Program-made: the position numbers and the translations under genes
The notes under the pieces: generated by a model
What the model was told of the DNA's origin: nothing
Databases searched by the model: none
What the model saw: the letters and a program-made list of their open reading frames with translations, nothing else
Part shown: one piece after another, positions 15,543 to 52,210 of the stretch
Numbering within the stretch: the stretch's first letter is position 1
Layout of the letters: each line of letters begins with the position of its first letter
NCBI GenBank assembly: GCA_013298025.1
Contig: JAAFJE010000002.1
Coordinates: 186,001-250,000, forward strand
Reading direction: 5' to 3'
Origin: Cytophagales bacterium
Lineage (GTDB): Bacteria; Bacteroidota; Bacteroidia; Cytophagales; Spirosomataceae
Length of the DNA: 64,000 bases

Positions 15543-16151
15543 CTAACTTCCAATTCGTTCACCCAGTATCAGCCACAAGCAAAGCAATTCTACAATATGG
15601 GCAGGTACACCCAGCGACTCTGACAACGATTCTAAGGCACGATACACCAACGCTCTTGCCGATTTCACCTTGGTCATCGCCATCAATTTGGCAATTTCTT
15701 CATAGCTCATGCCTTCAAAAAAGTAGAGAGCTATGGCCTCTCGTTGTTTTTGTGGCAATTTGGCACAAGCATCGGCAATCAGTTTATTGGTATCATCAGA
15801 AAACAACTGCGTAAATAAATCGCCTTCCTGCGGAATATCAAGAGCAAACGCTTCGGTATCGGTCGTAACAGAAACAAATTTTGCTTGCTTTTCAGCATAC
15901 CTAGCCAGTTTTCGTTTCAGGCTTGCATACAAATAAAACTTCACCGAAGTGGTTTCGCTCAAACGCTCACGAGCGACAATCATTTCACAAAACAAATCCT
16001 GAATAGCATCTTTTACCACATCTGTTTCTGGTACAAACTGTCGGCCATAATTGTACAACTTATGCACATAGCTATGATAAATATAGCTGAGGGCTTCGTC
16101 AGAACCCGCCTTAAATGCTGCCCAAATTTGTTCTTCTGAAAATTGCTCCAT
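15543..16151 (-). CDS. ECF-type RNA polymerase sigma factor
   Basis: This 202-residue sigma-70-family factor has region 2 (ALSYIYHSYVHKLYNYGRQFV through VKDAIQDLFCEMIV, about residues 20-70) and region 4 (LPQKQREAIALYFFEGMSYEEIAKLMAMTKVKSARALVYRAL, about 130-171). An upstream in-frame ATG at 16208 would add 19 residues. I choose 16151 because MEQFSEEQIW starts at the conserved helix and because the longer frame runs through a palindromic operator-like site (16192-16206). It is divergent from a FecR-type anti-sigma gene that precedes an STN-bearing SusC. That is the usual three-part surface-sensing circuit, so it should switch on the arabinan genes. Confidence 0.9.
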   Translation of the reverse strand: MEQFSEEQIWAAFKAGSDEALSYIYHSYVHKLYNYGRQFVPETDVVKDAIQDLFCEMIVARERLSETTSVKFYLYASLKRKLARYAEKQAKFVSVTTDTEAFALDIPQEGDLFTQLFSDDTNKLIADACAKLPQKQREAIALYFFEGMSYEEIAKLMAMTKVKSARALVYRALESLSESLGVPAHIVELLCLWLILGERIGS

Positions 16152-16191: not shown

Positions 16192-16206
16192 GTGTCATTT
16201 TTACAC
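16192..16206 (-). promoter_or_regulatory. Candidate AraR operator upstream of the ECF sigma gene
   Basis: Read toward the sigma gene, the site is AAATTGTGTAAAAATGACAC. It matches the sites before the GH51 gene, araR and araB at most positions, in the same orientation relative to the downstream gene. It ends about 40 bp before the chosen start. Apart from this, the 329-bp gap to fecR (16152-16480) is AT-rich with long A tracts. Operator function is inferred. Confidence 0.5.
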
Positions 16207-16480
16207 AATTTTTAAATAAAAACTGATGCTATTTACATTCTTTGCTCAAATGTAGAATATTTTATGATTCACTACTAAATAAAATGCAAAAAAAAATTTA
16301 TATAATTAAGTTTAACGCTTATTATCAGCTTATTTATGTACTATTTCATCTGAGAAAACAACCATAAAACTGGCTAAAAATAGGTTCTGTTATTTTTTTT
16401 CAAAAAAAAATAAAATTTTTTCCTTTTTGCTATGGTCATTTGGCGAAGTTATGTCTTTTATGATTAGAAACCCTTAAACT

Positions 16481-17539
16481 ATGCACACAAATAAACATAC
16501 GATAGAAGATTTTTTAAGCAACCCTTCGTTTGTTAAGTGGGTAAAAGACCCCGATGCCGAAACGGAAAGGCATTGGGAACAATGGCTCAAGCAGCATCCT
16601 GAAAAACAACAAGAAATGATGCTTGCACGCCAGCTTTTGCTCTCGTTGGCTTATAGAAATCAATATACTTTACCTCAAACCGATGTTGATGAAATTTTTG
16701 CCAAAATACAAGAAACACAAGCCTATACAGCCCAACAACCGCAACGCATGGTTGAGAAAGTCATCCCTTTTTTGGGACGTTTTTGGTGGGCAGCCGCTTC
16801 GGTAGCAGTAGTAGGTTTTTTCTTGGGCATGGGCAAGGGTACCCAACGCAACTTATTGACCAAAGTTATTTCGTTAGGCAAAACCGAATACCAAGAAACA
16901 GCCAAAGGCGAACGCCGCAAAGTAGTACTGCCCGATGGCACAATTGTTACGTTACAAGCCCAAAGTTCGTTGGAATTTCCTAGTGCTTTTACAGGTAATA
17001 TCAGAGAAGTAAAACTGGAAGGAGAAGCTTTTTTTGAGGTAGTAAAAAACCCAAATAAGCCTTTTGTCGTAAAATCTAAACACCTCGAAACAAAAGTATT
17101 AGGCACGTCTTTCGACGTAATAGACCGAGCCAATCAAGCACAAGGAAAGGTAGCAGTAGTAACGGGCAAGGTACAAATGAGTGTTCCTAAGCAAGGAATC
17201 AAGCAAATGTTAACCCCCAATTTGATGGGCGTATGGCAAGCAAAGCAACAAGCCATTGAGGCACAGCCATTTGACCCTAAAGAAATGATTAGTTGGAAAA
17301 GTAATATTTTATATTTTTCAAAAACACCGCTCAAAGCAGTATTCGAGCAACTTGAAATGTGGTATGGTGTTAGCATAGAAATTGCCCCCAACACCGCATT
17401 GAAAGGCCGATACAGCGGCGAGTTTTATGACGAAACTCTAGAAAATGTACTTACTGGCATTGCTTTTACTTCGGGCTTTAGCTATGAAATAGACGGCGAC
17501 CACGTGCGTATTATAAACTCAAGCAACACACAACCCTAA
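16481..17539 (+). CDS. FecR-family anti-sigma factor
   Basis: This inner-membrane regulator has 352 residues. A cytoplasmic N-terminus (about 1-95) would bind the ECF sigma factor. A single membrane segment (WWAAASVAVVGFFLGM, about residues 105-120) is followed by a periplasmic FecR domain (KGERRKVVLPDGTIVTLQAQSSLEF, then REVKLEGEAFFEVVKNPNKPFVV and LGTSFDVI). The C-terminal DUF4974-like part (TPLKAVFEQLEMWYGVSIEI, about 285-345) probably contacts the STN domain of SusC. It is divergent from the sigma gene rather than in the more common same-strand order, and is directly upstream of susC. Confidence 0.93.
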   Translation: MHTNKHTIEDFLSNPSFVKWVKDPDAETERHWEQWLKQHPEKQQEMMLARQLLLSLAYRNQYTLPQTDVDEIFAKIQETQAYTAQQPQRMVEKVIPFLGRFWWAAASVAVVGFFLGMGKGTQRNLLTKVISLGKTEYQETAKGERRKVVLPDGTIVTLQAQSSLEFPSAFTGNIREVKLEGEAFFEVVKNPNKPFVVKSKHLETKVLGTSFDVIDRANQAQGKVAVVTGKVQMSVPKQGIKQMLTPNLMGVWQAKQQAIEAQPFDPKEMISWKSNILYFSKTPLKAVFEQLEMWYGVSIEIAPNTALKGRYSGEFYDETLENVLTGIAFTSGFSYEIDGDHVRIINSSNTQP

Positions 17540-17693
17540 ATATATTTTTAACAAAAATCTACACAAAAACAACAGCAAAATTACTATTGACCCATACTTT
17601 AAAACCTAAAAATCAACACTTTATATTTTAAATTCACAATTCAGTACCATACTTAACTATGTATTCCTCGAAAACAAACAGCAGTTAAAAAGC

Positions 17694-17779
17694 AAGAGCC
17701 GACAGGAAGTCAGCTCTTTGCACTAGAGTCCAGAACTATCGATGTGGATTGGCGTCTGAGCGATAGCGTTGGACTCTGG
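17694..17779 (+). ncRNA. Structured leader or small RNA upstream of susC
   Basis: Two consecutive hairpins can be drawn. The first pairs AAGAGC-C-GAC (17694-17703) with GTC-A-GCTCTT (17709-17718). The second is a compound stem: AGAGTCCA (17725-17732) with TGGACTCT (17770-17777), and inside it CTATCG (17736-17741) with CGATAG (17761-17766). They lie in an otherwise AT-rich 285-bp gap and end about 45 bp before the susC start. The sequence is richer in G and C than its surroundings. A cis-acting leader or a small RNA is inferred; no known family is recognised. Confidence 0.45.
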
Positions 17780-17824
17780 GGAAATCTTGTATTGTCCAAA
17801 TAATTCAAAATCCCAACCAAATAT

Positions 17825-20800
17825 ATGAAAAACCTTCGACTCAAGTCGCTATTTAAGGCAAAAAAACGATTTATTACTATGTTGATGCTCCTCATGAGTA
17901 TTTTACAAATCAATATACTAGGCATCTTTTCGGCACAAGCCAAAAGTGTAGAAGATACACGTCTAACGCTCAGTGTAGAAAAAGTGACCTTAGTAGAAGT
18001 TTTCAAGGAAATTGAAAAGAAAACCAATTATCGTTTTTCTTACAACGATGCGTATTTGAATGAAAATGTACGTGTTACAGTAAAAATCCACGACAAAAAA
18101 TTAGGCGATGTACTCGGCTATTTGTCGAAAGAAGTAAACCTTCAATTCAAGCAAGTAAGAGGCAATATCCACGTGCTGAACACAAACCCGGCTACTGCCA
18201 GAAGCATGACCACCCCAAAAGAAATCCTGATAAGCGAAGTGGTGGCTTCTGGAGCAGTCTTGCACATTTCTGGGAAAATTGTAAGCCGTGAAGACAACCT
18301 TCCCATTGCTGGGGCAACCATCCACATCAAAGGCACCAACAAAGGTACGGTAGCCGATGCAGCAGGAAATTTTAAAATAGACGTTGACGACAACAACGCC
18401 GTATTGGAAATTTCTTCTATCGGTTTTATCAAACAAGAAATCAGAGTAGCAGGCAAAACTACGCTCTTGATAGAACTTACACCCGATGTTGCCAAACTTG
18501 ATGAGGTTGTAGTAGTGGGTTATGGTACACAAAAAGTAAAAGATTTGACAGGTTCAGTTGGGGTTGTTAAAGTAGAAGATGCCAAAAAAACAGCCACGTA
18601 TGACGTAGCCAAAATGCTACAAGGACAAGTAGCTGGCGTGACAGTACATGGTTCTGGAGAGCCTGGAGGCTTTGTGAGCATCAAGATTCGTGGGATTTCA
18701 TCATTCAACAACAACAGTCCTTTGTTTGTCATTGACGGTGTGCCAGTAGATGCCCCTTTCGATTTTTCACCAAACGATATTGAAAGTGTACAAGTATTGA
18801 AAGATGCCTCGGCTGGTGCTATTTATGGTTCGAGAGCAGCGACAGGGGTTGTAATTATCACTACTAAAAAAGGCAAAGCAGGCCCATTGAAAGTGGATTA
18901 TACAGGCTATGCTGGGGTACAGGATATTGCTAGAAGAATACCCGTAACCAACCGTGTAGGCTATCAAAAAATTACCAGTGCTGCCGAATTGAATGCAGGT
19001 ATGGCTGTCGCTCCCGGCAACGACCCCAATAGTCCGCAATACATCAGCAATGTGGATACAGATTGGCAAAAAGAAGGGTTCAAAACAGGACGAATCACCG
19101 ACCACAGTTTGAGTCTTTCGGGCGGTAGCGAAGCCATCAGAGGAAGCGTATCTTTTGGTTATTTCGACCAAAGCAGTACTTATACAGGGCCACAAAACTA
19201 TACACGTTATACTTTGAATGGCAACTTGAGTGGCAAAAAAGGCATTTTCTCGTTCGGAGCGAAATTTGCCTACACACAATCGCACAAAGTAAACAATGCC
19301 AATACAAGAGAACACGCCGTATTTGGTGGTAGCGTAACAAGTTTATTGACAGCTATTCCTACCATGCCCGTATATGACCCCAACCGCCTTGGTGGCTATG
19401 GAGGTAGCGACAACAATACCCAACGAGCGATTACGCTTAACGTAGTAGGGATGAACGCCTTGTTGAAAAGTACAAGCGACCGTAACCGTATTCTTGGCAA
19501 TGCTTGGGCTGAACTTGAATTTGTAAAAAACTTAAAATACCGCCTAAGCGTAAGTTATGACCGTACCGACTGGGAAGATTTCTTCTTTGAACCCAAATAT
19601 GACCTTGGTTTCTACTATCTTACTCCACAAGCATTTTTATCAAGAACACGTGGCGGTGCCAATACTTTCCTTGTTGAAAACACCTTGTCTTATGTAAAAG
19701 AATTTGGTAAGCATAAAGTGGATGCCTTGATTGGAGCAACACACCAAAAAGACCAATGGGCTTCGATGACAGGAACTGTATTGGGTCTTACAGAACCCTA
19801 TTTTTATACATTAAGTGCTGGTATTGAAGCAACTGGAGGTAGAGGAGTAAACGAATACCAATGGAATGCCGCTTTGCAATCATTCTTAGGTCGTTTGAAT
19901 TATAATTACGATGATAAATTTTTGTTGACTTACAACTTCCGTCGTGATGGTTCTTCAAGATTTAGTCCTGCCAACCGCTATGGTAACTTTATGTCGCTTG
20001 CTGGTGCAGTAAACGTACATAACTTGATTAAACTTCCTGAATTTATCAACTCTTTGAAAGTAAGAGGTGGTTACGGAGAGCTAGGAAACCAATCTATCGG
20101 CCAGTATTTGTATGATACTTATATCAACACCAATGCCAACTACGTATTCAATAATGTTTTGGCTACTGGTGCAACTCGTACACAAGTCGTGGACCCTTCT
20201 ATCAAATGGGAAGCCAAGAAAACAACCAATGTTGCCTTAGACTTTGGTTTCTTGAACGACAGGGTTTCATTGACGGCTGAATATTTCGATAACCGTGCGT
20301 ATGATATGCTTGTAGGTATTCCGATTCCTGCTTCTGTAGGTTCTACCAATGCAACGGTTGTTACCAATATTGGTTCTGTAAGTAACTCAGGGATTGAATT
20401 TACGGCTACTTATCGTCAAAAAACAGGCGATTTTAAATATGAAATTTCTGCCAATGCACACACATTAAAAAATAAAGTATTGGCACTCGGTGGCAACAAC
20501 GAGCCAATTTATGGTGCAGCCAGTAAAACGGAAGTAGGTCATTCGGTAGGTGAAATTTATGGTTATGTAACAGAAGGTATCTTCCAAAACCTTGACGATG
20601 TAAAAAATCATGCCACACAATTGAATGCTGCCCCTGGCGATATTAAGTTTAAAGACCTCAACGGCGATGGTAAAATCACAGCCGACGGCGACCGCACTTA
20701 CTTAGGTTCTGCCATTCCAAATTTCTATTATGGTGTAAACTTCGGTGCCTCGTATAAAAACTTTGACCTCTCTTTCTTCATCCAAGGACAAATGGGTAGC

Positions 20801-21211
20801 AAAGTGTATAATGGTGTGTATCGTGACTTGATGGGCGAGCAATACAGCAACCACCACGTAGATGCCTTAAATTACTGGACTCCAACCAATACCAATACCA
20901 ATGTACCACGTCCTGTAATTGGTGACCCCAACTCAAACACACGTGATTCTGATAGATTTATCGAAAGCGGGAACTATTTACGTATGCAAAATGCCCAAAT
21001 TGGCTACAATGTACCTAGTAGTATTTTGAGCAAATGGAAAGGTATCAGTAAAGTGAGAATTTATGCTTCTGGTCAAAATGTATTCTTACTTTCTGGCTAC
21101 CGTGGCTACGACCCCGATTTTGCTAGTGATGGTTTGTTGAGCAGAGGCTATGACTATGGCTCGTATCCAAACCCTCGCACGGTATTGCTTGGTTTACAAG
21201 TAAGTTTCTAA
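17825..21211 (+). CDS. susC: SusC-family TonB-dependent outer-membrane transporter with STN domain
   Basis: This 1128-residue outer-membrane importer would take up arabino-oligosaccharides with SusD as its lid. After a signal sequence (to about residue 40) comes an STN domain (TRLTLSVEKVTLVEVFKEIE onward, about 45-115), which signals to FecR. Then follow a carboxypeptidase-regulatory-like domain (SGKIVSREDNLPIAGATIHI, about 149-220), the plug (LDEVVVVGYGTQ from about 227, IKIRGISSFNNNSPLFVIDG) and the beta-barrel. The barrel ends in the aromatic strand RTVLLGLQVSF. The long positively charged N-terminus (KNLRLKSLFKAKKR) is unusual but common in this group. Substrate comes from context: all following genes concern arabinan. 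Confidence 0.95.
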   Translation: MKNLRLKSLFKAKKRFITMLMLLMSILQINILGIFSAQAKSVEDTRLTLSVEKVTLVEVFKEIEKKTNYRFSYNDAYLNENVRVTVKIHDKKLGDVLGYLSKEVNLQFKQVRGNIHVLNTNPATARSMTTPKEILISEVVASGAVLHISGKIVSREDNLPIAGATIHIKGTNKGTVADAAGNFKIDVDDNNAVLEISSIGFIKQEIRVAGKTTLLIELTPDVAKLDEVVVVGYGTQKVKDLTGSVGVVKVEDAKKTATYDVAKMLQGQVAGVTVHGSGEPGGFVSIKIRGISSFNNNSPLFVIDGVPVDAPFDFSPNDIESVQVLKDASAGAIYGSRAATGVVIITTKKGKAGPLKVDYTGYAGVQDIARRIPVTNRVGYQKITSAAELNAGMAVAPGNDPNSPQYISNVDTDWQKEGFKTGRITDHSLSLSGGSEAIRGSVSFGYFDQSSTYTGPQNYTRYTLNGNLSGKKGIFSFGAKFAYTQSHKVNNANTREHAVFGGSVTSLLTAIPTMPVYDPNRLGGYGGSDNNTQRAITLNVVGMNALLKSTSDRNRILGNAWAELEFVKNLKYRLSVSYDRTDWEDFFFEPKYDLGFYYLTPQAFLSRTRGGANTFLVENTLSYVKEFGKHKVDALIGATHQKDQWASMTGTVLGLTEPYFYTLSAGIEATGGRGVNEYQWNAALQSFLGRLNYNYDDKFLLTYNFRRDGSSRFSPANRYGNFMSLAGAVNVHNLIKLPEFINSLKVRGGYGELGNQSIGQYLYDTYINTNANYVFNNVLATGATRTQVVDPSIKWEAKKTTNVALDFGFLNDRVSLTAEYFDNRAYDMLVGIPIPASVGSTNATVVTNIGSVSNSGIEFTATYRQKTGDFKYEISANAHTLKNKVLALGGNNEPIYGAASKTEVGHSVGEIYGYVTEGIFQNLDDVKNHATQLNAAPGDIKFKDLNGDGKITADGDRTYLGSAIPNFYYGVNFGASYKNFDLSFFIQGQMGSKVYNGVYRDLMGEQYSNHHVDALNYWTPTNTNTNVPRPVIGDPNSNTRDSDRFIESGNYLRMQNAQIGYNVPSSILSKWKGISKVRIYASGQNVFLLSGYRGYDPDFASDGLLSRGYDYGSYPNPRTVLLGLQVSF

Positions 21212-21233
21212 GCATAAACCAACCCAATCATGC

Positions 21234-21275
21234 GTAAAATTGAGCTTTAGCATAAGGACTAAAGTTCAATTTTAC
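21234..21275 (+). promoter_or_regulatory. Intercistronic hairpin between susC and susD
   Basis: GTAAAATTGAGCTTTAG and CTAAAGTTCAATTTTAC form a 17-bp stem (one G-U pair) with an 8-nt loop. It sits in the 106-bp gap between susC and susD. It may protect or process the transcript and so set the SusC:SusD ratio. It also argues against a susD start at 21240, which would lie within the stem. Confidence 0.6.
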
Positions 21276-21317
21276 CCCAAAACGTACTTACAGTTTTCAA
21301 TTCTAATGACATTAGTA

Positions 21318-22871
21318 ATGAACAAAAGATATATTTTAGCTATTGCGGCTGCATTCTTGGTGACAACCTCATGCGACAAAGACTTGACCCAAAGCAACCC
21401 CAACCAACAAACGTCTGCTACTTTTTGGCAAAGTCAAGACGATGCCATTAAAGGCATCAATGCAGCCTATCAAACGCTTATCATTGATGGCGGTTATATG
21501 CGTAGCACACCCTTGTTACTCGATACCCGTGGCGACGATATCAAAAGTAATAGCCCTTGGGACCAAATGTATAACTCAGGAAAGTTTGCCTTGAATACAG
21601 GAAACGATGCTATTTATGGCTGGGCATTCGGAGCGTACTACGAAGGTATTTCTAAAGCTAATCAAGTGATTGATTATGTGCCTAAAATTAGCATGAGTAA
21701 TGATGTAAAAAATAGGGTGTTGGGACAAGCCTACTTCTTGAGAGGGCTATATTTCTTTCACCTTGTCAACCTCTTTGGCAATGTGGCTCTCCCAACACAC
21801 TCGGTGCAATCTACAGCCGACTTTTATATTAAGCAATCAACCGAAGCAGAAGGCTGGGCTCAGGTAGTTGATGATTTCAAAAAAGCGGCTGAGTTATTGC
21901 CAGTTACTTACGACAACGTAACTGGTCCAGACAAAGGACAAACAGGCCGTGCTACCAAAGGAGCAGCCTTGGGATATTTAGGAAAAACGTATTTGTTTAC
22001 TAAAAAATATGCAGAAGCAGCTACGCAATTTAAGGCTGTGATTGACTTGGGCATATACGACTTGGTGAGCAATTACAGAGATAACTTTATTGAAGCAACC
22101 GAAAACAACAAAGAATCACTCTTTGAGGTACAGTTTTCGAGAGATGCAGGAGGCAAAGATATGAACTGGGGCGGCGAACCTGCACCAGGCTGGGGCACAG
22201 TTTCAGGTCGTGCTATTACTTATGCACCAAGAGGTTTTGGCTGGACAGACATCCAACCTACACGCTCGGTTTATAATGAATTTTTGGTAGAAAAAACCCA
22301 AGCAGGTACAACAGACCCCCGTTTAGATGCAACGATATTTTATAACAAACCGGGAGGCATGAAAATTTACGGAAAAGACTTTGCCACAATTTACACCAAC
22401 GTAAACGATTTGAACGACTTGTTTTGCCGTAAGTACCAAAACGACGATACCAAAGCAGATGAATACGACTGGCGTTCGGGTATCAACGAAAGATTGTTGC
22501 GTTATGCTGATATTTTGTTGATGTATGCCGAATGTTTGAACGAAACAGGACAAACCGCCCAAGCGTATCAATACATCCAAAAAGTACGTTCACGGGTAAA
22601 TCTTCCTAATTTGGCTACAACCAAACCAAACATGACGGCAGCACAAATGCGTGAGCAAATTGCCCATGAGCGTTTATTGGAGTTTTGCCTAGAAGGACAC
22701 CGTTTCGACGATATTCGCCGTTGGGGTTGGTTGCAAGATGCTACCAAATTAGCAGAGTTGAAACAACGTGACCCAGAGTTTAATACTTACCAAACTGGTC
22801 GTGAGTTTTATCCAATTCCACAAAGAGAAATTAACACCAATCCAGGGTTTAAGCAAAATACTGGTTATTAA
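21318..22871 (+). CDS. susD: SusD/RagB-family surface glycan-binding lipoprotein
   Basis: This outer-membrane lipoprotein of 517 residues caps the SusC channel. The start at 21318 gives a clean lipoprotein signal (MNKRYILAIAAAFLVTTSC, cysteine at residue 19). SusD features are TSATFWQSQDDAIKGINAAYQTL near the N-terminus, the TPR-like helices RVLGQAYFLRGLYFFHLVNLFG and KGAALGYLGKTYLFTKKYAEAATQFKAVID. The C-terminal signature is INERLLRYADILLMYAECLNE, with ERLLEFCLEGHRFDDIRRWG and FYPIPQREI. It is in the same transcript as susC. A 10-bp inverted repeat (22899-22930) follows it. Confidence 0.95.
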   Translation: MNKRYILAIAAAFLVTTSCDKDLTQSNPNQQTSATFWQSQDDAIKGINAAYQTLIIDGGYMRSTPLLLDTRGDDIKSNSPWDQMYNSGKFALNTGNDAIYGWAFGAYYEGISKANQVIDYVPKISMSNDVKNRVLGQAYFLRGLYFFHLVNLFGNVALPTHSVQSTADFYIKQSTEAEGWAQVVDDFKKAAELLPVTYDNVTGPDKGQTGRATKGAALGYLGKTYLFTKKYAEAATQFKAVIDLGIYDLVSNYRDNFIEATENNKESLFEVQFSRDAGGKDMNWGGEPAPGWGTVSGRAITYAPRGFGWTDIQPTRSVYNEFLVEKTQAGTTDPRLDATIFYNKPGGMKIYGKDFATIYTNVNDLNDLFCRKYQNDDTKADEYDWRSGINERLLRYADILLMYAECLNETGQTAQAYQYIQKVRSRVNLPNLATTKPNMTAAQMREQIAHERLLEFCLEGHRFDDIRRWGWLQDATKLAELKQRDPEFNTYQTGREFYPIPQREINTNPGFKQNTGY

Positions 22872-22981
22872 TTAACGCTCCTAATGTAAAGCCTCTATCA
22901 TTGAATGGTGCAATCTTGTGCCATTCAATGGTATTCAATTGAATCTCTCACTTCATTATTCAAACTATTTTTTTGAGTAAC

Positions 22982-25900
22982 ATGTACAATTGCAATACTT
23001 CTTCAAAGCTGATACTTATTTTACTTCTAGGGATAATCGCTTGCCTGTGGCAGGCTTGTGCTACCGATGAACAAAAAAACGATTGGCAGTTTGAAAGCAT
23101 TGCGAGCAGTCATTCTCAAATTACTTTCCAAAATCGTATCGAAGAAAGCGATAGCGTCAATTTTTATACCAACGAATATATGTACATCGGCTCGGGGGTA
23201 GGCATCGGCGATTTTAATAACGATGGACTTCAAGACATCTTTTTTGCGGGCAGTCAGTCGCCTTGCCGTTTGTATATCAACTTAGGCGATTTTCGATTCG
23301 ACGACATCACCCAAGAGGCGGGCTTTCCTCCTACCTCGTGGTGTACAGGCGTGAGCGTAATCGACATCAATGCCGACGGGCTACAAGATATTTATGTATG
23401 TGTTTCGCACCACAGCGACCCCTTGAAACGTAAAAATCTCCTTTTTGTCAACCAAGGCAATTTACGCTTCAAAGAACAAGCCGAAGCGTATGGCTTGGCT
23501 GATACTGGATTTTCGACGCAAGCGACATTTTTGGACTACGACCACGATGGCGACCTCGATATGTATTTGCTCAACCATCAATTGTTTAACCCGCAACCCA
23601 ATAAATTGATTCCGCCCGATTCTTCGGGAAATGCCCCTGCGGCTGATAAACTGTATCGAAATGAAGGGCTTGTCCACAATCACCCTTTTTTCAAAGATGT
23701 GTCTAAAGAAGCGGGCATTCTCGAAGATGGCTACGGGCTTGGCGTAGTCGTGACCGATGTCAACAAAGACACCTATCCCGATATTTACGTAGCAAACGAC
23801 TATTTGAGCAACGATAAACTGTGGCTTAACCAACAAAATGGTACATTCAAAAACGTTGCCGATTTGGCCACTCGCCACCAAAGCTACAATAGTATGGGGG
23901 TTGATGCAGGCGATTTAAACAACGATTTGCTACCCGACTTGATGGTGTTAGATATGCTTCCAGCAGTAAACAAAAGAAAAAAAATGATGGCACTGGGTTT
24001 CAGTCCAGAAAAATATGACTTGCAAAGAAGACTGGGCTATCAACCCGAATTTTCCAGAAATATGCTACAACTACACCAAGGTATTGAAAAAATCGGGGTA
24101 CAGCCCATTCCGATTTATAGCGAAATTGGCAACTACGCTGGCGTTGCTGAAACCGATTGGAGTTGGAGCGTACTCATGGCCGATTTCGACAACGATACTT
24201 ACAAAGATTTACATATTACCAACGGTTTGGCAAAAGATTTGACCAACAACGACTTCCTTTTCTTTACCCAAGAAGCCCAACAAAGTAATTACGCTTTTGG
24301 GGGCGGTAGTAATAGCCTCAACCGCTTCGATGCTTCGGCTATCAAAGCTCTACGAGAAAAACTAGATAGCTATGGAGTCGTTAGTCTAAATAATGTATGT
24401 TACCGAAATCAAGGAAATATGCAATTTGAAGACATTTCTACCTCAGTTGGTATAACAGAAAAAAGTATTTCACATGGGGCGGCATACGCCGATTTTGACA
24501 ACGATGGCGACCTCGATTTAGTAGTAAACAATGTAAATCAAGAAGCTTTCTTACTAAAAAATACTCTTCGTCAACATATCAGCGATAGTACTCACCACTT
24601 TTTGACACTTCAACTCAAAGGTACAGCTCAAAACCCCAATGCCTTGGGCACACAAGTGTATGTTTATACCCAAGGAAAAGTACAATTAGTAGAACAAAAC
24701 CCTGTACGTGGCTATGCGTCTAGCGTAGATATACGCCTGCACATTGGTCTAGGCAATGCTTCTGTTATCGACTCGTTGTTGATTGTGTGGCCCAACGGCA
24801 CAGTACAGCGGTTAGCTCAATTGCCTTGTAACCAATACCTAACGGTCAATTATCAGCCAAACGCCAAATACCTCGCTCCTACTTTTGCTTCATTTACCAC
24901 ACAAAACCGTAGCGATATTCCAGCTTTTACACACCAAGAAATACCATTTTTTGATTACTATAATCGTCGCTTACAACCACAAAAGTATTCGCAATTAGGC
25001 CCTTGTATCGCTGTTGCCGACGTAAATGCCGATGGCTTAGAAGATTATTTTGTCGGCGGAGCAGCAGGACAAACCAGTAAAATATACTTACAAAAAGCCA
25101 ACGGACAATGGCAAGAACGCTCGCTGAATAGCCGATTTTCGGGCGATAATTTGGCGGCTTCTTTCCTCGATGCCGACCAAGACCACGACCTCGACCTCGT
25201 TGTAGTAGGCGGTAGCACCGAATACGCTCAAGGTACAGCATCGCCTGTGCAGTTTTTTACCAACGACGGACAAGGAAATTTTACGCAAAACATTACTACT
25301 ATGCCCAATGTATCGGTTTGTGCAGCAACACTCGCCACCGCCGATTACGATGGAGATGGAGATACCGATATTTTTGTTGGAGGAAGATTCCATCCCGAAC
25401 AGTTTCCGAGCAATCCGCCGAGTTTTTTATTTATCAATGAAAAAGGTAAATTTATAAACAAAACCGCCTTACTTGCACCACAATTACAAAAAGTAGGCAT
25501 GGTTACGGCAGCCCAATGGCTCGATTTCGACAACGACCAACAGCTCGATTTGGTGCTTTGTGGCGAATGGATGCCTATTCAATTCTTCAAAAATCAAAAC
25601 GGACGTTTGCAGGTCGTCCAACAAGCCAGCGAGCTAAGTACCCAAAATGGTCTTTGGCGTAGCCTCACAAGTGCCGACATCGACCACGATGGCGACCTAG
25701 ATTTGCTTGCAGGGAATATCGGACAAAACCAAAAATACCATATTTCGGCAGAAAAGCCCTTGCATCTTTTTGCCAAAGACATCGACAAAAACGGCTCTAT
25801 CGAACTGCTACCAGCCTATTTTATCCGCAACGAAACAGGCGAATACCAATTATTTCCTGATTTCGACCGCAACCAATTTGCCGAACAAACCCCTACCATC

Positions 25901-26365
25901 AAGAAAAAATACGTATCGCACGAGGAATTTGCCGAATCGTCAATGAATACCATTTTAACACATATAGAAAAGGATAATCTTTTCGATTTAACTTGCCAAT
26001 TTGCAGCAAGCGTCTGGCTCGAAAACCAAGGCAATGGCACATTCAAAACACATCTTTTGCCTTGGCAAGCACAACTTGCTCCCATCAACGCAATCCTGTG
26101 CTATGATTGGCAACAAGATGGTTTTCCCGAAATATTCATCGCAGGCAACGAATACCAAACCGAAATTACCACCGGACGTTACGATGCCCTCTACGGACAA
26201 ATCTTAGCCAATGAGCAAGGCAAACTTAGAGCTTATCCTCTTGGTTATCAGGGCTTCTTCTTTAGAGGCGATACAAAAGCAATGGCGCTGCTCAAACAGC
26301 CCAAGCATACAAGCCTGCTCGTAGGCAACAACAACTTGCCCTTAAAGGCATTTACTTTACCATAA
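22982..26365 (+). CDS. Large FG-GAP/VCBS-repeat and ASPIC/UnbV-domain surface lipoprotein (CRTAC1-like)
   Basis: This protein of 1127 residues has a lipoprotein-like signal (ILILLLGIIACLWQAC, cysteine at about 29). It carries at least a dozen calcium-binding FG-GAP motifs of the form D-x-[DN]-x-D-G-x-x-D, for example DFNNDGLQD, DINADGLQD, DYDHDGDLD, DFDNDGDLD, DVNADGLED, DYDGDGDTD and DIDHDGDLD. They form two propeller-like halves. Between them lies an ASPIC/UnbV domain (ALGTQVYVYTQGKVQLVEQN and HIGLGNASVIDSLLIVWPNG, about 550-640). A TTG start at 22973 is possible, but the ATG at 22982 is preferred. Such proteins often follow susCD in Cytophagales, where SusE/SusF are missing. A role as an extra surface glycan binder is inference. 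Confidence 0.85.
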   Translation: MYNCNTSSKLILILLLGIIACLWQACATDEQKNDWQFESIASSHSQITFQNRIEESDSVNFYTNEYMYIGSGVGIGDFNNDGLQDIFFAGSQSPCRLYINLGDFRFDDITQEAGFPPTSWCTGVSVIDINADGLQDIYVCVSHHSDPLKRKNLLFVNQGNLRFKEQAEAYGLADTGFSTQATFLDYDHDGDLDMYLLNHQLFNPQPNKLIPPDSSGNAPAADKLYRNEGLVHNHPFFKDVSKEAGILEDGYGLGVVVTDVNKDTYPDIYVANDYLSNDKLWLNQQNGTFKNVADLATRHQSYNSMGVDAGDLNNDLLPDLMVLDMLPAVNKRKKMMALGFSPEKYDLQRRLGYQPEFSRNMLQLHQGIEKIGVQPIPIYSEIGNYAGVAETDWSWSVLMADFDNDTYKDLHITNGLAKDLTNNDFLFFTQEAQQSNYAFGGGSNSLNRFDASAIKALREKLDSYGVVSLNNVCYRNQGNMQFEDISTSVGITEKSISHGAAYADFDNDGDLDLVVNNVNQEAFLLKNTLRQHISDSTHHFLTLQLKGTAQNPNALGTQVYVYTQGKVQLVEQNPVRGYASSVDIRLHIGLGNASVIDSLLIVWPNGTVQRLAQLPCNQYLTVNYQPNAKYLAPTFASFTTQNRSDIPAFTHQEIPFFDYYNRRLQPQKYSQLGPCIAVADVNADGLEDYFVGGAAGQTSKIYLQKANGQWQERSLNSRFSGDNLAASFLDADQDHDLDLVVVGGSTEYAQGTASPVQFFTNDGQGNFTQNITTMPNVSVCAATLATADYDGDGDTDIFVGGRFHPEQFPSNPPSFLFINEKGKFINKTALLAPQLQKVGMVTAAQWLDFDNDQQLDLVLCGEWMPIQFFKNQNGRLQVVQQASELSTQNGLWRSLTSADIDHDGDLDLLAGNIGQNQKYHISAEKPLHLFAKDIDKNGSIELLPAYFIRNETGEYQLFPDFDRNQFAEQTPTIKKKYVSHEEFAESSMNTILTHIEKDNLFDLTCQFAASVWLENQGNGTFKTHLLPWQAQLAPINAILCYDWQQDGFPEIFIAGNEYQTEITTGRYDALYGQILANEQGKLRAYPLGYQGFFFRGDTKAMALLKQPKHTSLLVGNNNLPLKAFTLP

Positions 26366-26435
26366 AAATCATTTAAAACAATTTTTTCTTAATTTATTCC
26401 TAAAATTTGCAAAAATTGATTTTTCTTATAAAATT

Positions 26436-26450
26436 GTGTCAAAATAACAC
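26436..26450 (+). promoter_or_regulatory. Candidate AraR operator upstream of the first GH51 gene
   Basis: The palindromic GTGTCAAAATAACAC, preceded by AAATT, is identical over 20 bp to the site in front of araR. It lies about 100 bp before the start codon. Regulator identity is inferred from the adjacent araR gene. Confidence 0.6.
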
Positions 26451-26551
26451 TTTATACAAAACGAGTAAATAACCTTGTTCAATGAGGTTATTTCTGAAAC
26501 TAAGCGGTCATTTTTTCAATCAACGTATTTCGTATTTAATTATCAACTTTT

Positions 26552-28540
26552 ATGAATCGTATAATAAAAACCGTTAGCTTAATTTTAGCTACATCGTGGT
26601 GTTCGTATGCCCAAGCACCCACGCCAATCAAGGTCAATGCGGCCCAACCTGTTGCTGATATTCAGCCAACTATGTGGGGGATTTTTTTTGAAGACATCAA
26701 CCTTGGGGCAGATGGGGGCATTTACGCCGAACTTATTAAAAACCGTTCTTTTGAATTTGCCAAACCCATGATGGGCTGGAAAATAGAACGCAAAACTTTT
26801 CATGAAGGAGAAATTTTAATCCAAAATCGCCAAGAAAAACAAAGTAGCAACCCTCGCTTTGTCACGGTAACACTCAACAATACAGCCAAAGGCGACCTAG
26901 GGCTCACCAACGAAGGATTTAGAGGAATGGGCTTGAAAAAAGACCTCCGCTACGACTTTTCGGTAATGTATCGCACTGCCAACAAAGGCATTAAACTTCA
27001 CCTCGAACTCCTCGATGCCAACAATGCCGTTATTGGCTCGGGCATAGTAGCCCCAAGCGAAAGCGATAACCAATGGCATAAAGCTACGGCGAGTTTTCAA
27101 GCAACTGCTACCGAAGCCAAAGGTAAATTCAGGGTATGGTTTGAAGGCTCGGGCAACATCGACTTAGATATGATTTCGCTTTTCCCAACCGATACTTGGA
27201 AAGGTCGTCAGGGCGGAATGCGTGCCGATATGATTCAGAAATTAGCCGATTTGAAACCGGGCTTTATCCGTTTTCCGGGTGGTTGTATTGTAGAAGGAAT
27301 CGACCTCAACAACCGTTACCAATGGAAAAAAACCCTGGGAACATTGGAAGAACGCCAGTTGATTATGAATCGCTGGAACGTAGAATTTGCTCACCGTCCA
27401 GCACCAGATTACTTTCAAACTTTTGGCTTAGGATTTTTTGAATATTTCCAATTGGCGGAAGACATCGGTGCCGAACCGCTGCCTATTCTCAACTGTGGTA
27501 TGGCCTGCCAATTCAATACCGCCGAGGTTGTGCCATTAGACCAACTCGACCCCTACATTCAAGATGCCATCGACCTCATCGAATTTGCCAATGGCGATGC
27601 CACAACACCTTGGGGTAAAATACGTGCTTCGATGGGACACCCTGCCCCATTCAACTTGAAAATGATGGGCATTGGTAACGAAAACTGGGGACCACAATAC
27701 GTAGAACGCCTCAAAGCTTTTACGAAGGCTATCAAAGCTAAATATCCCAACATCCGTTTGGTCAATAGCTCTGGAACAGACCCCAACGGTGAGCGTTTCG
27801 ATTACCTCAATAAAGAATTACGTGCCATGAATGCCGACTTTATTGATGAACATTATTACAGAACACCCGATTGGTTCTTGAAAAATGCCGCTCGTTACGA
27901 TAGCTACGACCGCAATGGCTCGAAAATATTTGCAGGCGAATACGCTGCCCAAAGCGATAAAACCGTAAGCGTTGACAACCGCAACAACTGGAAATGTGCT
28001 TTGTCAGAAGCCGCCTTTATGACAGGGCTAGAACGCAATGCCGCCGTAGTACAAATGGCTTCGTATGCACCACTTTTTGCCCACGCCGAAGGTTGGCAAT
28101 GGACACCAGACTTGATTTGGGTGGATAACCTTCGTTCGTATGGTACGCCTAACTATTATGTACAAAAATTGTACTCAACCAACCGTGGCTCTAGTGTACT
28201 ACCGATGTTGCAAAATGAACAGCCTCTTACAGGACAAGACAGTCTTTACGCCTCGGCAAGTTGGGATAACGCCAGCAACGAGATTATTCTGAAAATAGCC
28301 AATACCTCTGCCCAAAGTATCAGCCGTGAAGTGGCTTTGGAAGGAGTGAAAAAATTAGACCCAACAGGCAAATGGATTATCTTGAAAAACGATAATCTTG
28401 GGGCAGTCAATACCTTTGAAAACGCCATTGCGGTCAGTCCTGTAGAACAAAGCATTGCAGTAGATACCAAAAAGAAAAAAGTAGCCCTCAATTTAGCACC
28501 GTATTCTTTCTCGGTTATCCGCATTAAAGCAGTAAAATAA
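26552..28540 (+). CDS. GH51 alpha-L-arabinofuranosidase with N-terminal carbohydrate-binding-like domain
   Basis: This secreted or periplasmic enzyme of 662 residues removes alpha-L-arabinofuranosyl groups from arabinan or arabinoxylan side chains. The signal peptide ends near SYAQA (residue about 21). The N-terminal QPTMWGIFFEDINLGADGG is the start of the GH51 fold, interrupted by a CBM4/9-like beta domain (about 75-210). The catalytic acid/base is E377 in GIGNENWG and the nucleophile E463 in FAGEYAAQ. The C-terminal beta domain ends in LNLAPYSFSVIRIKA. It is preceded by a candidate AraR site and followed by a terminator hairpin. Confidence 0.94.
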   Translation: MNRIIKTVSLILATSWCSYAQAPTPIKVNAAQPVADIQPTMWGIFFEDINLGADGGIYAELIKNRSFEFAKPMMGWKIERKTFHEGEILIQNRQEKQSSNPRFVTVTLNNTAKGDLGLTNEGFRGMGLKKDLRYDFSVMYRTANKGIKLHLELLDANNAVIGSGIVAPSESDNQWHKATASFQATATEAKGKFRVWFEGSGNIDLDMISLFPTDTWKGRQGGMRADMIQKLADLKPGFIRFPGGCIVEGIDLNNRYQWKKTLGTLEERQLIMNRWNVEFAHRPAPDYFQTFGLGFFEYFQLAEDIGAEPLPILNCGMACQFNTAEVVPLDQLDPYIQDAIDLIEFANGDATTPWGKIRASMGHPAPFNLKMMGIGNENWGPQYVERLKAFTKAIKAKYPNIRLVNSSGTDPNGERFDYLNKELRAMNADFIDEHYYRTPDWFLKNAARYDSYDRNGSKIFAGEYAAQSDKTVSVDNRNNWKCALSEAAFMTGLERNAAVVQMASYAPLFAHAEGWQWTPDLIWVDNLRSYGTPNYYVQKLYSTNRGSSVLPMLQNEQPLTGQDSLYASASWDNASNEIILKIANTSAQSISREVALEGVKKLDPTGKWIILKNDNLGAVNTFENAIAVSPVEQSIAVDTKKKKVALNLAPYSFSVIRIKAVK

Positions 28541-28569
28541 CGAATTCTATCTTACTTACTCCACGTATT

Positions 28570-28596
28570 GAGCTACCTCCACTTGGTAGGTAGCTC
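28570..28596 (+). terminator. Rho-independent terminator after the GH51 gene
   Basis: GAGCTACCT (28570-28578) pairs with AGGTAGCTC (28588-28596) with a 9-nt loop, followed by CTTTTTTCC. The next GH43 start is only about 20 bp further, so partial read-through is likely. Confidence 0.75.
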
Positions 28597-28616
28597 CTTT
28601 TTTCCGACACTACAAT

Positions 28617-29579
28617 ATGTTTTCATGTAAAAAATATGTTGCACTATTGGCATTGCAATGGTGCTGTTATGGCATATTTGCCCAACAAGAAATGCCCAAG
28701 CTACACGACCCCAGCACCATCATCAAAGCAAATAACCAGTATTACCTTTATGCCACAGGCATGGGTATTGGTGGGTTTCGGTCGAGCGACAAAATACACT
28801 GGCAAGCCCTCCCTCCTATTTTTAAACCTAACCAACACCCTGCGTGGATTGATTCGACGGTAAAGGGCTTTAAAGGGCATTTTTGGGCACCCGACGTAAT
28901 ATATATGAATGGCAAATATCATGTTTATTACTCCTGCTCTACTTTCGGTGCGGCGGTGTCGGCTATTGGGCTTGTCACCACTCCTACCCTCGACCCACAA
29001 GCACCCAATTATCAATGGACAGACCAAGGCGTTGTGATACAATCGAAAGAGAAAAAAGATTTCAACGCCATCGACCCAAGCATTTTGAAAGATAGTCAGG
29101 GTAAAATTTATATGACCTACGGCTCTTTTCATGGCGGCATTGCAGGGCTTGAACTAGACTCGCTCACAGGCAAACAAAAAGCCAATACCGAGCTAGTGAA
29201 ATTGGCAGGCGGAAGAGAAGCCGATTGGGAAGCGTCTTGTTTGATGCAAGAAGGAAAATATTATTACCTGTTTGTCAATAATGGCCTGTGTTGCAAAGGA
29301 TTAAACAGCACTTATTACATTGTAGTAGGTCGTTCCGAAAATCCACTTGGGCCATTTCTCGACAAAGAAGGCAAAGACCTGAAAGCAGGTGGTGGCACGG
29401 TGCTTTTACGCAGTCAAGGACGTTTCTTGGGACCCGGACACCTAGGACTTTTACGAGAAAACCACCAAAGCACAACCAGTATTCACTATTATGATGCCAA
29501 CGACGAAGGCAAATCGAAACTAGGCTTTATCAAGCTTACGTTCAAAAAAGGCTGGCCTGTAGCCACCATTCTCGAATAA
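28617..29579 (+). CDS. GH43 arabinanase/arabinosidase
   Basis: This secreted enzyme of 320 residues has a five-bladed propeller fold that hydrolyses alpha-1,5-arabinan. The signal peptide ends in YGIFAQQ. The catalytic base Asp is in LHDPSTI (about residue 31), the pKa-modulating Asp in FNAIDPSIL, and the acid Glu in EADWEASCLM. The later LFVNNGLCCKGLNSTYYIVVG and FLGPGHLG stretches are typical of endo-arabinanase-like GH43 (subfamily 4/5). An endo versus exo mode cannot be decided by eye. It lacks the C-terminal domain found in the second arabinanase of this locus (36432-38054). Confidence 0.9.
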   Translation: MFSCKKYVALLALQWCCYGIFAQQEMPKLHDPSTIIKANNQYYLYATGMGIGGFRSSDKIHWQALPPIFKPNQHPAWIDSTVKGFKGHFWAPDVIYMNGKYHVYYSCSTFGAAVSAIGLVTTPTLDPQAPNYQWTDQGVVIQSKEKKDFNAIDPSILKDSQGKIYMTYGSFHGGIAGLELDSLTGKQKANTELVKLAGGREADWEASCLMQEGKYYYLFVNNGLCCKGLNSTYYIVVGRSENPLGPFLDKEGKDLKAGGGTVLLRSQGRFLGPGHLGLLRENHQSTTSIHYYDANDEGKSKLGFIKLTFKKGWPVATILE

Positions 29580-29683
29580 GTGCCAATGCAAAAGAGCTAA
29601 AAGTCTTTTACACCTCTGAAGTTTGAAATCCAATAATATTTTTGCACGAAAATTTTGCACTTTAAAAAAAATATTGTAAAATT

Positions 29684-29698
29684 GTGTCAAAATAACAC
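29684..29698 (+). promoter_or_regulatory. Candidate AraR operator upstream of araR
   Basis: The sequence is the same 15-bp palindrome as at 26436, with the same AAATT flank, about 140 bp before the araR start. This would make AraR autoregulated. Confidence 0.6.
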
Positions 29699-29836
29699 AT
29701 TTAGAAAATCAGTGATTTGTATTTCATATAATTGTACGAAGCTAGTGGGGGAATTTTTAATTCCCCATCACTTATGCTATGGTAGTTTTAAGGGAATTGC
29801 TTAATTTTATTAGAAATTAAAAAGACCATTAGTTGA

Positions 29837-30538
29837 ATGTTGGAAAAATACAATCACAGTGCCCGAATTTTAGTTGCCCTCGACTGCATCGTATTTGGAT
29901 TTGATGGAGAAGAATTGAAACTACTTTTAATCAAACGAAACTTTGAACCCCAATTGGGCAAGTGGTCGTTGATGGGAGGTTTCTTGAATGAAACAGAAGA
30001 TTTAGAAGTAGCGGCAAACCGCATTTTATATGACTTGACAGGCTTGCAAGATGTTTATTTTGAGGAGCTTAAAACCTTTGGGCGTGTTGACCGTGACCCC
30101 GTAGAACGTACCGTTTCGGTATGTTTTTTTGCGTTGATTAATATCCATGCCCATAGCCAAGACGCAGCCAAAGCCCAAAATGCCTTTTGGATTAACCTCA
30201 AGAATCGGCCAGAAATGATTTTTGACCACAACGAAATGGTAAATTTGGCACTCGAACGTTTGCGTTATCGTGCAGCCTTGCATCCTATTGGTTTTGAGTT
30301 GTTGCCCGAAAAATTTACAATTCCGCAACTACAAAAATTGTACGAGGCTATTTATGATACACCGCTCGACCGCCGTAATTTTAGTCGTAAAATTTTATCG
30401 ACGAAACTCTTAATCGACACGGGCGAGAAAAACGAAAATTCGGCTACAAAAAAAGCCATTCTCTACCGACTAGACCAACAAAAATACCAACAGCAATTTA
30501 ATGCTTTTCATTATTTTGTATCAGATATTCGAGTATAA
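29837..30538 (+). CDS. araR: Nudix-type transcriptional regulator of arabinose utilisation (AraR)
   Basis: This 233-residue cytoplasmic regulator has a Nudix-fold sensor (about 10-150) and a C-terminal winged helix (about 160-225, EKFTIPQLQKLYEAIYDTPLDRRNFSRKIL). The family includes NrtR and the arabinose repressor AraR described in Bacteroides. The Nudix box GGFLNETEDLEVAANRILYD keeps the glycine, first glutamate and arginine. The catalytic REUxEE acidic residues are replaced (R-I-L-Y-D-L), so hydrolysis is probably lost and the domain senses a ligand. Position before araBAD and shared palindromes at four promoters support the arabinose role. In Bacteroides the repressor is released by L-arabinose; here this is inference. 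Confidence 0.88.
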   Translation: MLEKYNHSARILVALDCIVFGFDGEELKLLLIKRNFEPQLGKWSLMGGFLNETEDLEVAANRILYDLTGLQDVYFEELKTFGRVDRDPVERTVSVCFFALINIHAHSQDAAKAQNAFWINLKNRPEMIFDHNEMVNLALERLRYRAALHPIGFELLPEKFTIPQLQKLYEAIYDTPLDRRNFSRKILSTKLLIDTGEKNENSATKKAILYRLDQQKYQQQFNAFHYFVSDIRV

Positions 30539-30604
30539 AACCTTTTTGATAGTAGAGGTGAATGAGTTTTTCATTTATCAGATATTTATATAAGTACTAA
30601 TGCA

Positions 30605-30678
30605 AAATTGTGAATGAGTGAATTGTGAATTAATACTTTAAGTTATCAAAATTTAAAACAACAATTTCCAATTCAGCC
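30605..30678. repeat. GTGAATGAG/GTGAATT intergenic repeat between araR and araB
   Basis: The left arm is ATTGTGAATGAGTGAATTGT onward (30607-30632), and a degenerate right arm (CAATTTCCAATTCA) ends near 30675. Its upstream flank AAGTACTAATGCAAAATTGTGA mirrors the copy at 15455. It is the weakest inverted repeat in the series. Confidence 0.5.
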
Positions 30679-30731
30679 TTGTTACTTAATTACTAAAAAT
30701 ACTTGTTTTTATACAAAAAATAATACAAATT

Positions 30732-30746
30732 GTGTCAATTTAACGC
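30732..30746 (+). promoter_or_regulatory. Candidate AraR operator upstream of araB
   Basis: AAATTGTGTCAATTTAACGC differs at only a few positions from the sites at 26436 and 29684 and keeps the palindromic halves. It lies about 75 bp before the araB start. Confidence 0.55.
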
Positions 30747-34390: not shown

Positions 34391-34565
34391 GATTGAGTGA
34401 ATTGTGATTGAGTGAGTTAGTGAGTTAGTGATTTTAGTTTTTCGTTTGCAAATACTTATAAGCTCGATTGATTAAATATAATTTTGACCAAAGCAAATTG
34501 TAAGTTTCTGAAAGTCAAACCACTAACTCACTAACTCACAACTCTCTCATTCACAACTTACTCAA
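34391..34565. repeat. GTGAGTTA/CACTAACT inverted repeat between araA and GH51
   Basis: The left arm 34391-34432 (GATTGAGTGAATTGTGATTG, then two GTGAGTTA-like units) pairs with a right arm 34521-34565 (CACTAACTCACTAACTCACA and following). An AT-rich loop of about 90 nt separates them. Confidence 0.7.
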
Positions 34566-38840: not shown

Positions 38841-39066
38841 TTAGTTAGTGAATTGTGAATGAGTGAGTTAGTGAGTTAGTGAGTTAGTGAGTTAGTGAGT
38901 TAGTGAGTTAGTGAGTTAATGGTTGACAGAACTACAGATAATTGAGTTCTAAAAATTGTACATTTATTTGCAGATTTTCATTACAAACCATTCACTAAAT
39001 CACTCACTCACAATTCACTAACTAAATCACTCACTCACAATTCACTAACTAACAATTCACTCAATA
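38841..39066. repeat. Seven-copy GTGAGTTA tandem repeat with complementary right arm, araD-symporter gap
   Basis: The left arm includes seven perfect GTGAGTTA units (38863-38918) after a GTGAATTGTGAATGA start. The right arm (38989-39066) contains TCACTCACTCACAATTCACT repeated with CACTAACTAA. The arms could form a long imperfect stem around a loop of about 70 nt. It fills most of the 274-bp gap. Confidence 0.8.
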
Positions 39067-43147: not shown

Positions 43148-43425
43148 AATTGAGTGAGTTGTGAGTTGTGAGTTAGTGAGTTGTGAGTTAGTGAGTTGTG
43201 AGTTGTGAGTTAGTGAGTTGTGAGCTAGTAAATTGATTTTCAGGAATTTACATTTTTAATTAAGATTTGATTTAGTGATGAGTTAATTGAATTTATATGT
43301 ATTTGAAAATAAAAACTTTAACTCACAACTAACTCATTCACAATTCACTAACTAACAACTAACTCACAACTAGCTAATTCACAATTCACTAACTAACAAC
43401 TCACTAACTAACAACTAACTAATTA
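43148..43425. repeat. Long GTTGTGA/GTTAGTGA inverted repeat between transaldolase and galM genes
   Basis: The left arm 43148-43233 alternates GAGTTGTGA and GTTAGTGA units about ten times. The right arm 43319-43425 contains their complements (TCACAACTAACTCATTCACA, CACTAACTAACAACT). An AT-rich loop of about 85 nt separates them. It occupies almost the whole 324-bp gap and is the longest of the series. Confidence 0.8.
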
Positions 43426-51196: not shown

Positions 51197-51268
51197 CCCC
51201 TCGCTGGTCTAAGTATTTTTTCTCTTAGACACACAAATAAATGCAGTCTTTGACTGCCCTGCTAGTGC
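51197..51268 (+). repeat. Double-hairpin repeat element, copy 1 (direct)
   Basis: The element consists of a CCTCGCTGGTCTAAGT...TTAGAC hairpin, an ACAAATAAA spacer, a second GCAGTC-TTT-GACTGC hairpin and a CTGCTAGTGC tail. The first stem is imperfect in this copy. It lies between the hypothetical gene and the first LRR gene. Confidence 0.8.
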
Positions 51269-51327
51269 AAGAATGTACTACCTTTGATTTTCTACTAAAC
51301 TCATCTAAATTTCAACGATTCATCTCT

Positions 51328-52077: not shown

Positions 52078-52080
52078 CTA

Positions 52081-52151
52081 CCCTCGCTTGCCTAAGTATT
52101 TTTTCTCTTAGACACACAAATAAATGCAGTCTTTGACTGCACTGCTAGTGC
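52081..52151 (+). repeat. Double-hairpin repeat element, copy 2 (direct)
   Basis: This copy has the same layout as copy 1, with the first stem degenerate (GCTTGCCTAAGTATTTT) and the second intact, and reads ACTGCTAGTGC at the end, matching the inverted copy at 62128 exactly there. It lies between LRR copies 1 and 2. Confidence 0.8.
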
Positions 52152-52210
52152 AAGAATGTACTACCTTTGATTTTCTACTAAACTCATCTAAATTTCAACG
52201 ATTCATCTCT

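Follow-up and report, generated by a model that had tools for sequence, protein, structure and literature searches.

Can the sugar that has already entered a cell decide whether this cell senses glycans at its surface? The question is raised by a stretch of 64,000 nucleotides from a Cytophagales bacterium (contig JAAFJE010000002.1, positions 186,001–250,000; in the following the window), in which genes for an extracytoplasmic function (ECF) sigma factor, a FecR anti-sigma factor, and a TonB-dependent transporter stand together in one locus, as identified with Pfam and NCBIfam, and which also carries an arabinose gene cluster with the regulator gene araR. A motif shared by four promoters had led to the original prediction that AraR controls not only catabolic genes but also the sigma gene. 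We put the probability at about 0.8 that the four sites are operators of the cluster-encoded, arabinose-responsive AraR, which would repress the genes behind them, including the sigma gene, until L-arabinose is present. The prediction is supported in part, namely by the operator layout, by the domains and the arabinose-binding residues of AraR, by the sigma orthologues, and by a genome in which the sigma gene and araR lie on separate contigs; the binding of AraR, the repression, the order of events, and the role of the sigma factor at fecR-susC-susD are what we infer.

Four sites and their place in the genome

The 20-mer AAATTGTGTCAAAATAACAC matches the window four times at up to three mismatches, where 0.02 matches are expected and where none of 100 shuffled sequences gave four. 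The copies before the first gene of glycoside hydrolase (GH) family 51 (26431–26450) and before araR (29679–29698) are identical, the copy before the sigma gene (16192–16211, minus strand) has two mismatches, and the copy before araB (30727–30746) has three. The predicted arrangement of two identical and two variant copies is borne out at each position and strand, and reading the sequence also confirms that the AAATT end lies distal to the gene at all four sites. The core of the 20-mer is GTGT-N7-ACAC and comprises 15 bp. Its earlier description as a near-perfect palindrome holds for the outer arms, whose four bases pair at three of the four sites; for the core as a whole it is overstated, since only five of seven pairs match at each site. 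The araB site carries an ACGC arm, and because the same variant is seen in the genomes G000–G004 and G008 it seems to have been retained and not to result from decay. The mechanically listed open reading frame (ORF) of the sigma gene begins with TTG at 16208 and would overlap the site; the alignment of the orthologues starts at the ATG of 16151, and therefore the site is placed 40 bp upstream of the sigma start.

Half-sites alone prove nothing, because the bare half-site pattern is no more frequent in the window than chance predicts (18 matches at up to one mismatch, 18.8 expected) and is also found within the coding region of susC (17946–17960); position and conservation do carry weight. We collected 37 unique operators (38 in all) from relatives and from the window's genome, picked as sites before a named gene; the araA extras of G014, the second araR sites in G016 and G021, the sites in G018, G007, and G022, and the susC site of G021 were omitted. 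The AATT flank is gene-distal in 28 of the 37 and gene-proximal in two, and the 26 discordant cases all have the same direction. This orientation bias on an otherwise symmetric operator is real. The AATTG flank was also considered as a −33 element with a −7 box downstream, a candidate that we rejected, as the box TAnnTTTG is not enriched there (mean best match 3.54 compared with 3.53 in shuffled sequences).

A motif spread genome-wide without relation to arabinose genes would speak against AraR. When this was examined with the flanked pattern WTTGTGT-N7-ACRC, 22 rows were obtained, corresponding to 18 distinct places in the genome, compared with nine rows for the reversed control. Four of these places are within ORFs, two are away from gene starts, and twelve lie within ∼250 bp before a gene. 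Eight of the twelve promoter places belong to arabinose-type or sigma genes (araR, araB, GH51, this sigma gene, a second ECF sigma gene, GH43, GH127, and GH42), two to genes of the NAD regulon, and two to others, the remaining targets being NrtR, phosphoribosyl pyrophosphate (PRPP) synthetase, peptidyl-tRNA hydrolase, and one unclassified gene. In its flanked form the motif thus speaks for AraR. An AraR-type site is found 20 bp before a gene for a GH127 beta-L-arabinofuranosidase (G000:C5:95281, locus L159), and this gene is, judging from its site, likely a further member of the regulon.

The sites recur in relatives. Among 17 loci, made up of araR-surrounding stretches from 16 relatives and the window, 13 have a perfect site before araR; araB was found in 13 of the loci and is preceded in 11 of these by a site with no more than one mismatch. 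A further set comprises the best 80 of 545 AraR loci with flanks of up to 10 kb; it includes strains that are also counted as G001, G002, G004, G013, and G008 and that were kept in the control counts. Here the site stands before araB in 47 of 70 and before araR in 30 of 78 cases.

The regulator, the sigma site, and competing explanations

The NUDIX, NrtR_WHD, and AraR_C models each match the window's AraR over their cut-offs, and its best structure match is AraR of Bacteroides thetaiotaomicron (BtAraR, E 3.1e-66). All three residues that form hydrogen bonds with arabinose (R34, R86, and H131) are kept, and the arabinose pocket also retains Y5, F36, G47, G48, F49, and F129; the hydrophobic pocket is kept as well, with the exception of V92, which is T. 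The Nudix signature (REUXEEXGU) is impaired and reads RILYDLTGL in an alignment read by eye. Of the DNA contacts, D178, R180, and N181 are kept, and within the contact set K179, R180, N181, K184, K204, and R205 two of six residues are identical (R180 and N181); the same pattern of DNA-contact residues is present in 15 AraR orthologues (L033–L047). The sequence comparison thus supports the AraR family and the likely ligand well and suggests that the exact DNA contacts are partly different. In the part of the BtAraR study available (PMC4666351), oligonucleotides with the layout GTGT-N7-ACAC were used in electrophoretic mobility shift assays (EMSA), and the GTGT word is said to be defined by crystal contacts. 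The window core matches the layout of these oligonucleotides when compared by eye. Six NrtR-type proteins are encoded in the window's genome; one of them, the paralogue C18, has a palindrome of its own, GTATCATTTTGATAC.

When the sigma protein was searched against 222 genomes of the family (E≤1e-30), six close members with 51–100% identity were obtained, the window included (G000, G001, G002, G004, G008, and G013). All six have the site 35–53 bp before the start. In G008 it has one arm mismatch, ACGC as at araB; this genome carries its sigma gene on contig C18 and its araR on contig C27. When five sigma–fecR gaps were aligned, eight of eight arm columns were invariant, compared with three of seven spacer columns and 35% of the other intergenic columns. 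As a control, the 80 AraR loci contain 617 unclassified genes near araR, 13 of which have a site at up to one mismatch; at this rate six of six amounts by arithmetic to ∼1e-10. Since three of the six genomes are close relatives, about four lineages count, and the value becomes ∼2e-7 if these three are counted once. The form GTGTA...TGACAC of the sigma sites also occurs before araR in G014 and G021.

Several results weigh against repression by AraR as the common explanation. The bare half-site pattern occurs genome-wide at 55 places compared with 43 for its reversed control, and peptidyl-tRNA hydrolase, an unrelated gene, is among the targets of the flanked form. By the pattern, 48 of the 78 araR genes of the 80-locus set lack a site, and the GH51 genes of G001, G002, and G004 have none at up to one mismatch. 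With respect to BtAraR, the changes K179R, K184R, and R205K keep the charge but K204T does not, and S163, R183, and K200 are replaced by P, S, and E; K179, K184, K204, and R205 are contacts which the available part of the BtAraR study terms absolutely conserved (PMC4666351). The invariance of the eight arm columns corresponds to P ∼2e-4 under the assumption of independent columns, which is not extreme alone, and the close relationship of three sigma genomes diminishes what six occurrences are worth. Among 49 more distant sigma loci 43 have no site at up to one mismatch, the six with a site being L111, L115, L116, L118, L142, and L143 (the last two from G233 and G018). Within the flanks of the 80 AraR loci none of 24 ECF sigma genes has a site, nor has any of 17 FecR and 8 SusD genes, and one of 25 SusC genes does. 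A general AraR–sigma wiring is rejected by the count of sigma genes. The Flectobacillus sigma gene lies ∼13–16 kb from araR, and since flanks of 10 kb stop short of it the 80-locus counts are no test of it.

It is unlikely that the sites are bound by some other common sugar regulator (Crp-like or unknown) and that AraR just happens to be encoded nearby. This explanation draws on sites that precede sigma genes of polysaccharide utilization loci (PULs) which are not evidently for arabinose (sigma group 2, and sigma group 3 with its GH29 fucosidase, see below) and on the palindrome, which we take to be loosely like a Crp site. However, sites occur most often at araB and araR, and they share the layout of the BtAraR operators tested by EMSA. 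In addition, the Bacteroides Crp consensus is a different word, TATGTTnTAnAACATA, in the part of the source available (PMC3878776).

With a similarly small probability the gap site could serve fecR, or both genes, as sigma gene and fecR are divergent and share ∼330 bp. Against this, the site is 40–51 bp away from the sigma gene and 267–275 bp away from fecR, its AATT flank has the same orientation relative to the sigma gene as at the other targets, and a TAnnTTTG box on the sigma strand precedes it. Furthermore, the sigma gene of G008 keeps the site, and no FecR match was found within the 19.5 kb examined there.

Binding by NrtR was considered because one sister regulator in the window's genome, and only one, the NAD-type NrtR paralogue C50, has a recognition helix nearly identical to that of AraR (DRRNFRKK vs DRRNFSRK). 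The gene of C50 adjoins NUDIX and NAMPT genes, an identical site lies before PRPP synthetase, and the sites upstream of C50 itself, GTGTAAAAACAACAC and GTGTAAAAAATACAC, are similar to that of the sigma gene. NAD-type NrtR is present in G000 and G008, but at E≤1e-60 none was found in G001, G002, G004, and G013, all of which keep the sigma site, whereas AraR is present in all six sigma-site genomes. Among the 19 NrtR-type proteins listed in these four genomes the DRRN helix is found in AraR only, and 14 of 19 NAD-type NrtR homologues are without a perfect site. The sites themselves also differ, as the arm GTGTCA is present in five of the six sigma sites (GCGTCA in G008) and absent from five perfect sites before L167, L168, L169, and L175; it does occur in the site before L181, a NAD-type homologue with 47% identity. 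We consider it very unlikely that the sigma site belongs to C50; in the window's own genome NrtR may cross-bind there. Finally, a chance match at the sigma gene, for which the chance-level frequency of the half-sites could be quoted, is barely conceivable, as all six close orthologues have the site with changed spacers at a control rate of 13/617, and on these sequence counts chance does not account for the sigma site.

Predicted promoter, proposed mechanism, and neighbouring genes

The flavobacterial housekeeping sigma factor has TAnnTTTG as its −7 box, located at −12 to −5 (PMC9723704). In five of the six sigma orthologues such a box begins 47–49 bp ahead of the operator; in G008 the distance is 17 bp. 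In a post hoc scan of the 38 operators, related sequences of which are not independent, eight exact matches fall at −60 to −41 where 0.77 are expected; five belong to the sigma gene, two to sigma group 2, and one to the window's araR. As no araB site and a single araR site have the box in this interval, a box at fixed upstream distance was rejected as a general feature of the operator. At the sigma gene the position of the box leads to a predicted transcription start ∼36 bp upstream of the operator, which would then cover about +36 to +50 and could have a blocking role.

The sites, their conservation, the protein families, and the likely promoter box can be read from the sequence and suggest the following course of regulation by AraR. 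When L-arabinose is lacking, AraR would occupy the sites before araR, araB, GH51, and the sigma gene and keep all of them low. At the sigma operator, just downstream of the predicted start, it might block elongation or promoter escape. Binding of L-arabinose by the Nudix domain would release AraR from the sites. The sigma factor, once made, would stay held by FecR until SusC handles glycan, and would then presumably transcribe fecR-susC-susD. The sensing circuit would therefore need both cytoplasmic arabinose and surface substrate.

Table 1. Features of the locus in window coordinates; all operators and promoter elements are predicted.
Feature	Position (strand)	Basis and remarks
ECF sigma gene	15543..16151 (−)	202 aa from ATG; Pfam Sigma70_r2 and r4_2, TIGR02937, orthologues
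AraR-type operator core GTGTAAAAATGACAC	16192..16206 (−)	40 bp before sigma ATG
−7 box TACATTTG (TAnnTTTG) of sigma gene	16247..16254 (−)	consensus match
Conserved block before fecR, ends CTATGGTCATTT	16399..16441 (+)	candidate ECF-dependent promoter; largely conserved in 5 aligned genomes
FecR-type anti-sigma factor gene	16481..17539 (+)	Pfam FecR and FecR_C
SusC TonB-dependent transporter	17825..21211 (+)	TIGR04056; probable N-terminal signalling domain (FecR_C/STN-like)
SusD	21240..22871 (+)	Pfam SusD_RagB
AraR-type operator before GH51 (GTGTCAAAATAACAC)	26436..26450 (+)	motif search
GH51 alpha-L-arabinofuranosidase	26552..28540 (+)	domain match
GH43, arabinanase-like	28617..29579 (+)	domain matches
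AraR-type operator before araR (autoregulation)	29684..29698 (+)	perfect site in 13/17 loci
araR, NrtR/Nudix-family repressor	29837..30538 (+)	Pfam NrtR_WHD, AraR_C, NUDIX
AraR-type operator before araB (GTGTCAATTTAACGC)	30732..30746 (+)	motif search and relatives
araB ribulokinase	30819..32456 (+)	followed by araA, GH51b, Abn, araD, SSS symporter

The sigma protein resembles the NCBIfam model Sig70_bacteroi1 and scores below the cut-off of this model. For SusC, the FecR_C match reaches 26.3 bits (cut-off 24.4) with the N-terminal part alone and 20.9 bits in the full-length scan, and the STN match of 20.5 bits is under its cut-off of 28.4. A shared ECF promoter before susC was sought with CTATGGTCATTT and rejected, as this word does not recur exactly anywhere else in the window and as three mismatches give 94 matches compared with 75 expected.

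In the fecR–susC gap the susC leader (17690–17785) has a strong predicted RNA structure (z −3.24), with similar stems and an invariant GATTGGCGTC across five genomes. It has no Rfam match at gathering thresholds, and a pattern built from it has no other match in the genome. The RNAalifold support is weak (covariation term +2.8; two of 23 pairs compensated), in part because G013 aligns badly. Elsewhere in the window, low-complexity intergenic repeats composed of words like AACTCAC, ACTAACT, and GTGAGTT lie between operons (34391–34564, 38843–39061, and 43153–43422), and three successive ORFs on the same strand (51241–53719; 278, 257, and 257 aa) are possibly a tandem gene family. Ten copies of AGTGTCAAAATGATAC, 76–153 bp apart, apparently form an array at G000:C5:137180–138043.

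Extent of the proposed wiring and known systems

Within the genus, AraR-type sites also precede the sigma genes of two other ECF sigma PULs. Sigma group 2 is an ECF sigma/FecR/SusCD locus without evident substrate, in which the site is ∼117 bp upstream of the sigma match, in G000 (C17:56377, L149) as well as in G003 (C6, L150). Sigma group 3 is a PUL with such a site in G001 (C35, L153), G002 (C129, L154), and G004 (C21, L151); it is linked to a GH29 alpha-L-fucosidase in these three genomes, which have the perfect site, and in G003 the site has one mismatch. In G021 a site precedes susC and not the sigma gene, in a PUL with GH43 and GH127. Tentatively, and with less confidence than we place in AraR control of the window's sigma gene, we suggest that in Flectobacillus and its close relatives ECF sigma genes of surface-sensing PULs have come repeatedly under the control of a cytosolic monosaccharide repressor, in the sigma lineage of the window, in group 2, and in group 3, as a feed-forward AND gate and with a regulon that reaches the sensing of other glycans.

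The closest known system is the AraR regulon of B. thetaiotaomicron (BT0354), as far as the available part of its description goes (PMC4666351). Both have a NrtR/Nudix repressor beside ara genes and GTGT-N7-ACAC operators; in B. thetaiotaomicron the sites likewise stand before ara operons, GH51, GH43, and PUL genes, and PULs are under AraR and a second, glycan-sensing regulator. This second regulator is a hybrid two-component system, whereas here it is an ECF sigma/FecR pair, the predicted site lies before the sigma gene itself, and several DNA-contact residues are changed. Dual control by AraR and hybrid two-component systems has thus already been described (PMC4666351, PMC3878776). The combination of repressor and glycan sensor would in our case be written at the sigma gene itself. 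No description of AraR at an ECF sigma gene was found in the open-licence PMC literature, a search that did not cover subscription journals and preprints.

NAD-type NrtR (C50; Shewanella NrtR, PDB 3gz5/3gz6, also among the structure matches) shares family, recognition helix, and GTGT half-sites with AraR, but its gene stands beside NUDIX/NAMPT genes and it was not found at E≤1e-60 in four of the sigma-site genomes. PUL24 of B. thetaiotaomicron, with an ECF sigma/anti-sigma pair and the global regulator BT4338, is also an ECF-type PUL with two-input control; in contrast to our proposal, the available passages describe no repressor operator at its sigma gene (PMC11501099). The nearest parallel in logic is Fur on fecIR and hasI, where, in the part of the source available, a cytoplasmic repressor that reads the intracellular state acts on the ECF sigma gene of a TonB-transducer/anti-sigma circuit and fecIR is transcribed by the housekeeping sigma factor (PMC9249621). 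Fur belongs to a different repressor family and responds to a different nutrient, and the sign is opposite: with abundant nutrient Fur closes the sigma gene, as a feedback (PMC9249621), whereas AraR would open it with sugar, as a feed-forward. Such control would account for the silence of an ECF-driven PUL before a first sugar has come in, and the dependence of the sensing capacity on intracellular sugar is open to test at a single operator and by the deletion of a single gene. If the wider wiring is true, sugar already in the cell would license new surface sensors, with a sign opposite to that of Fur on fecIR.

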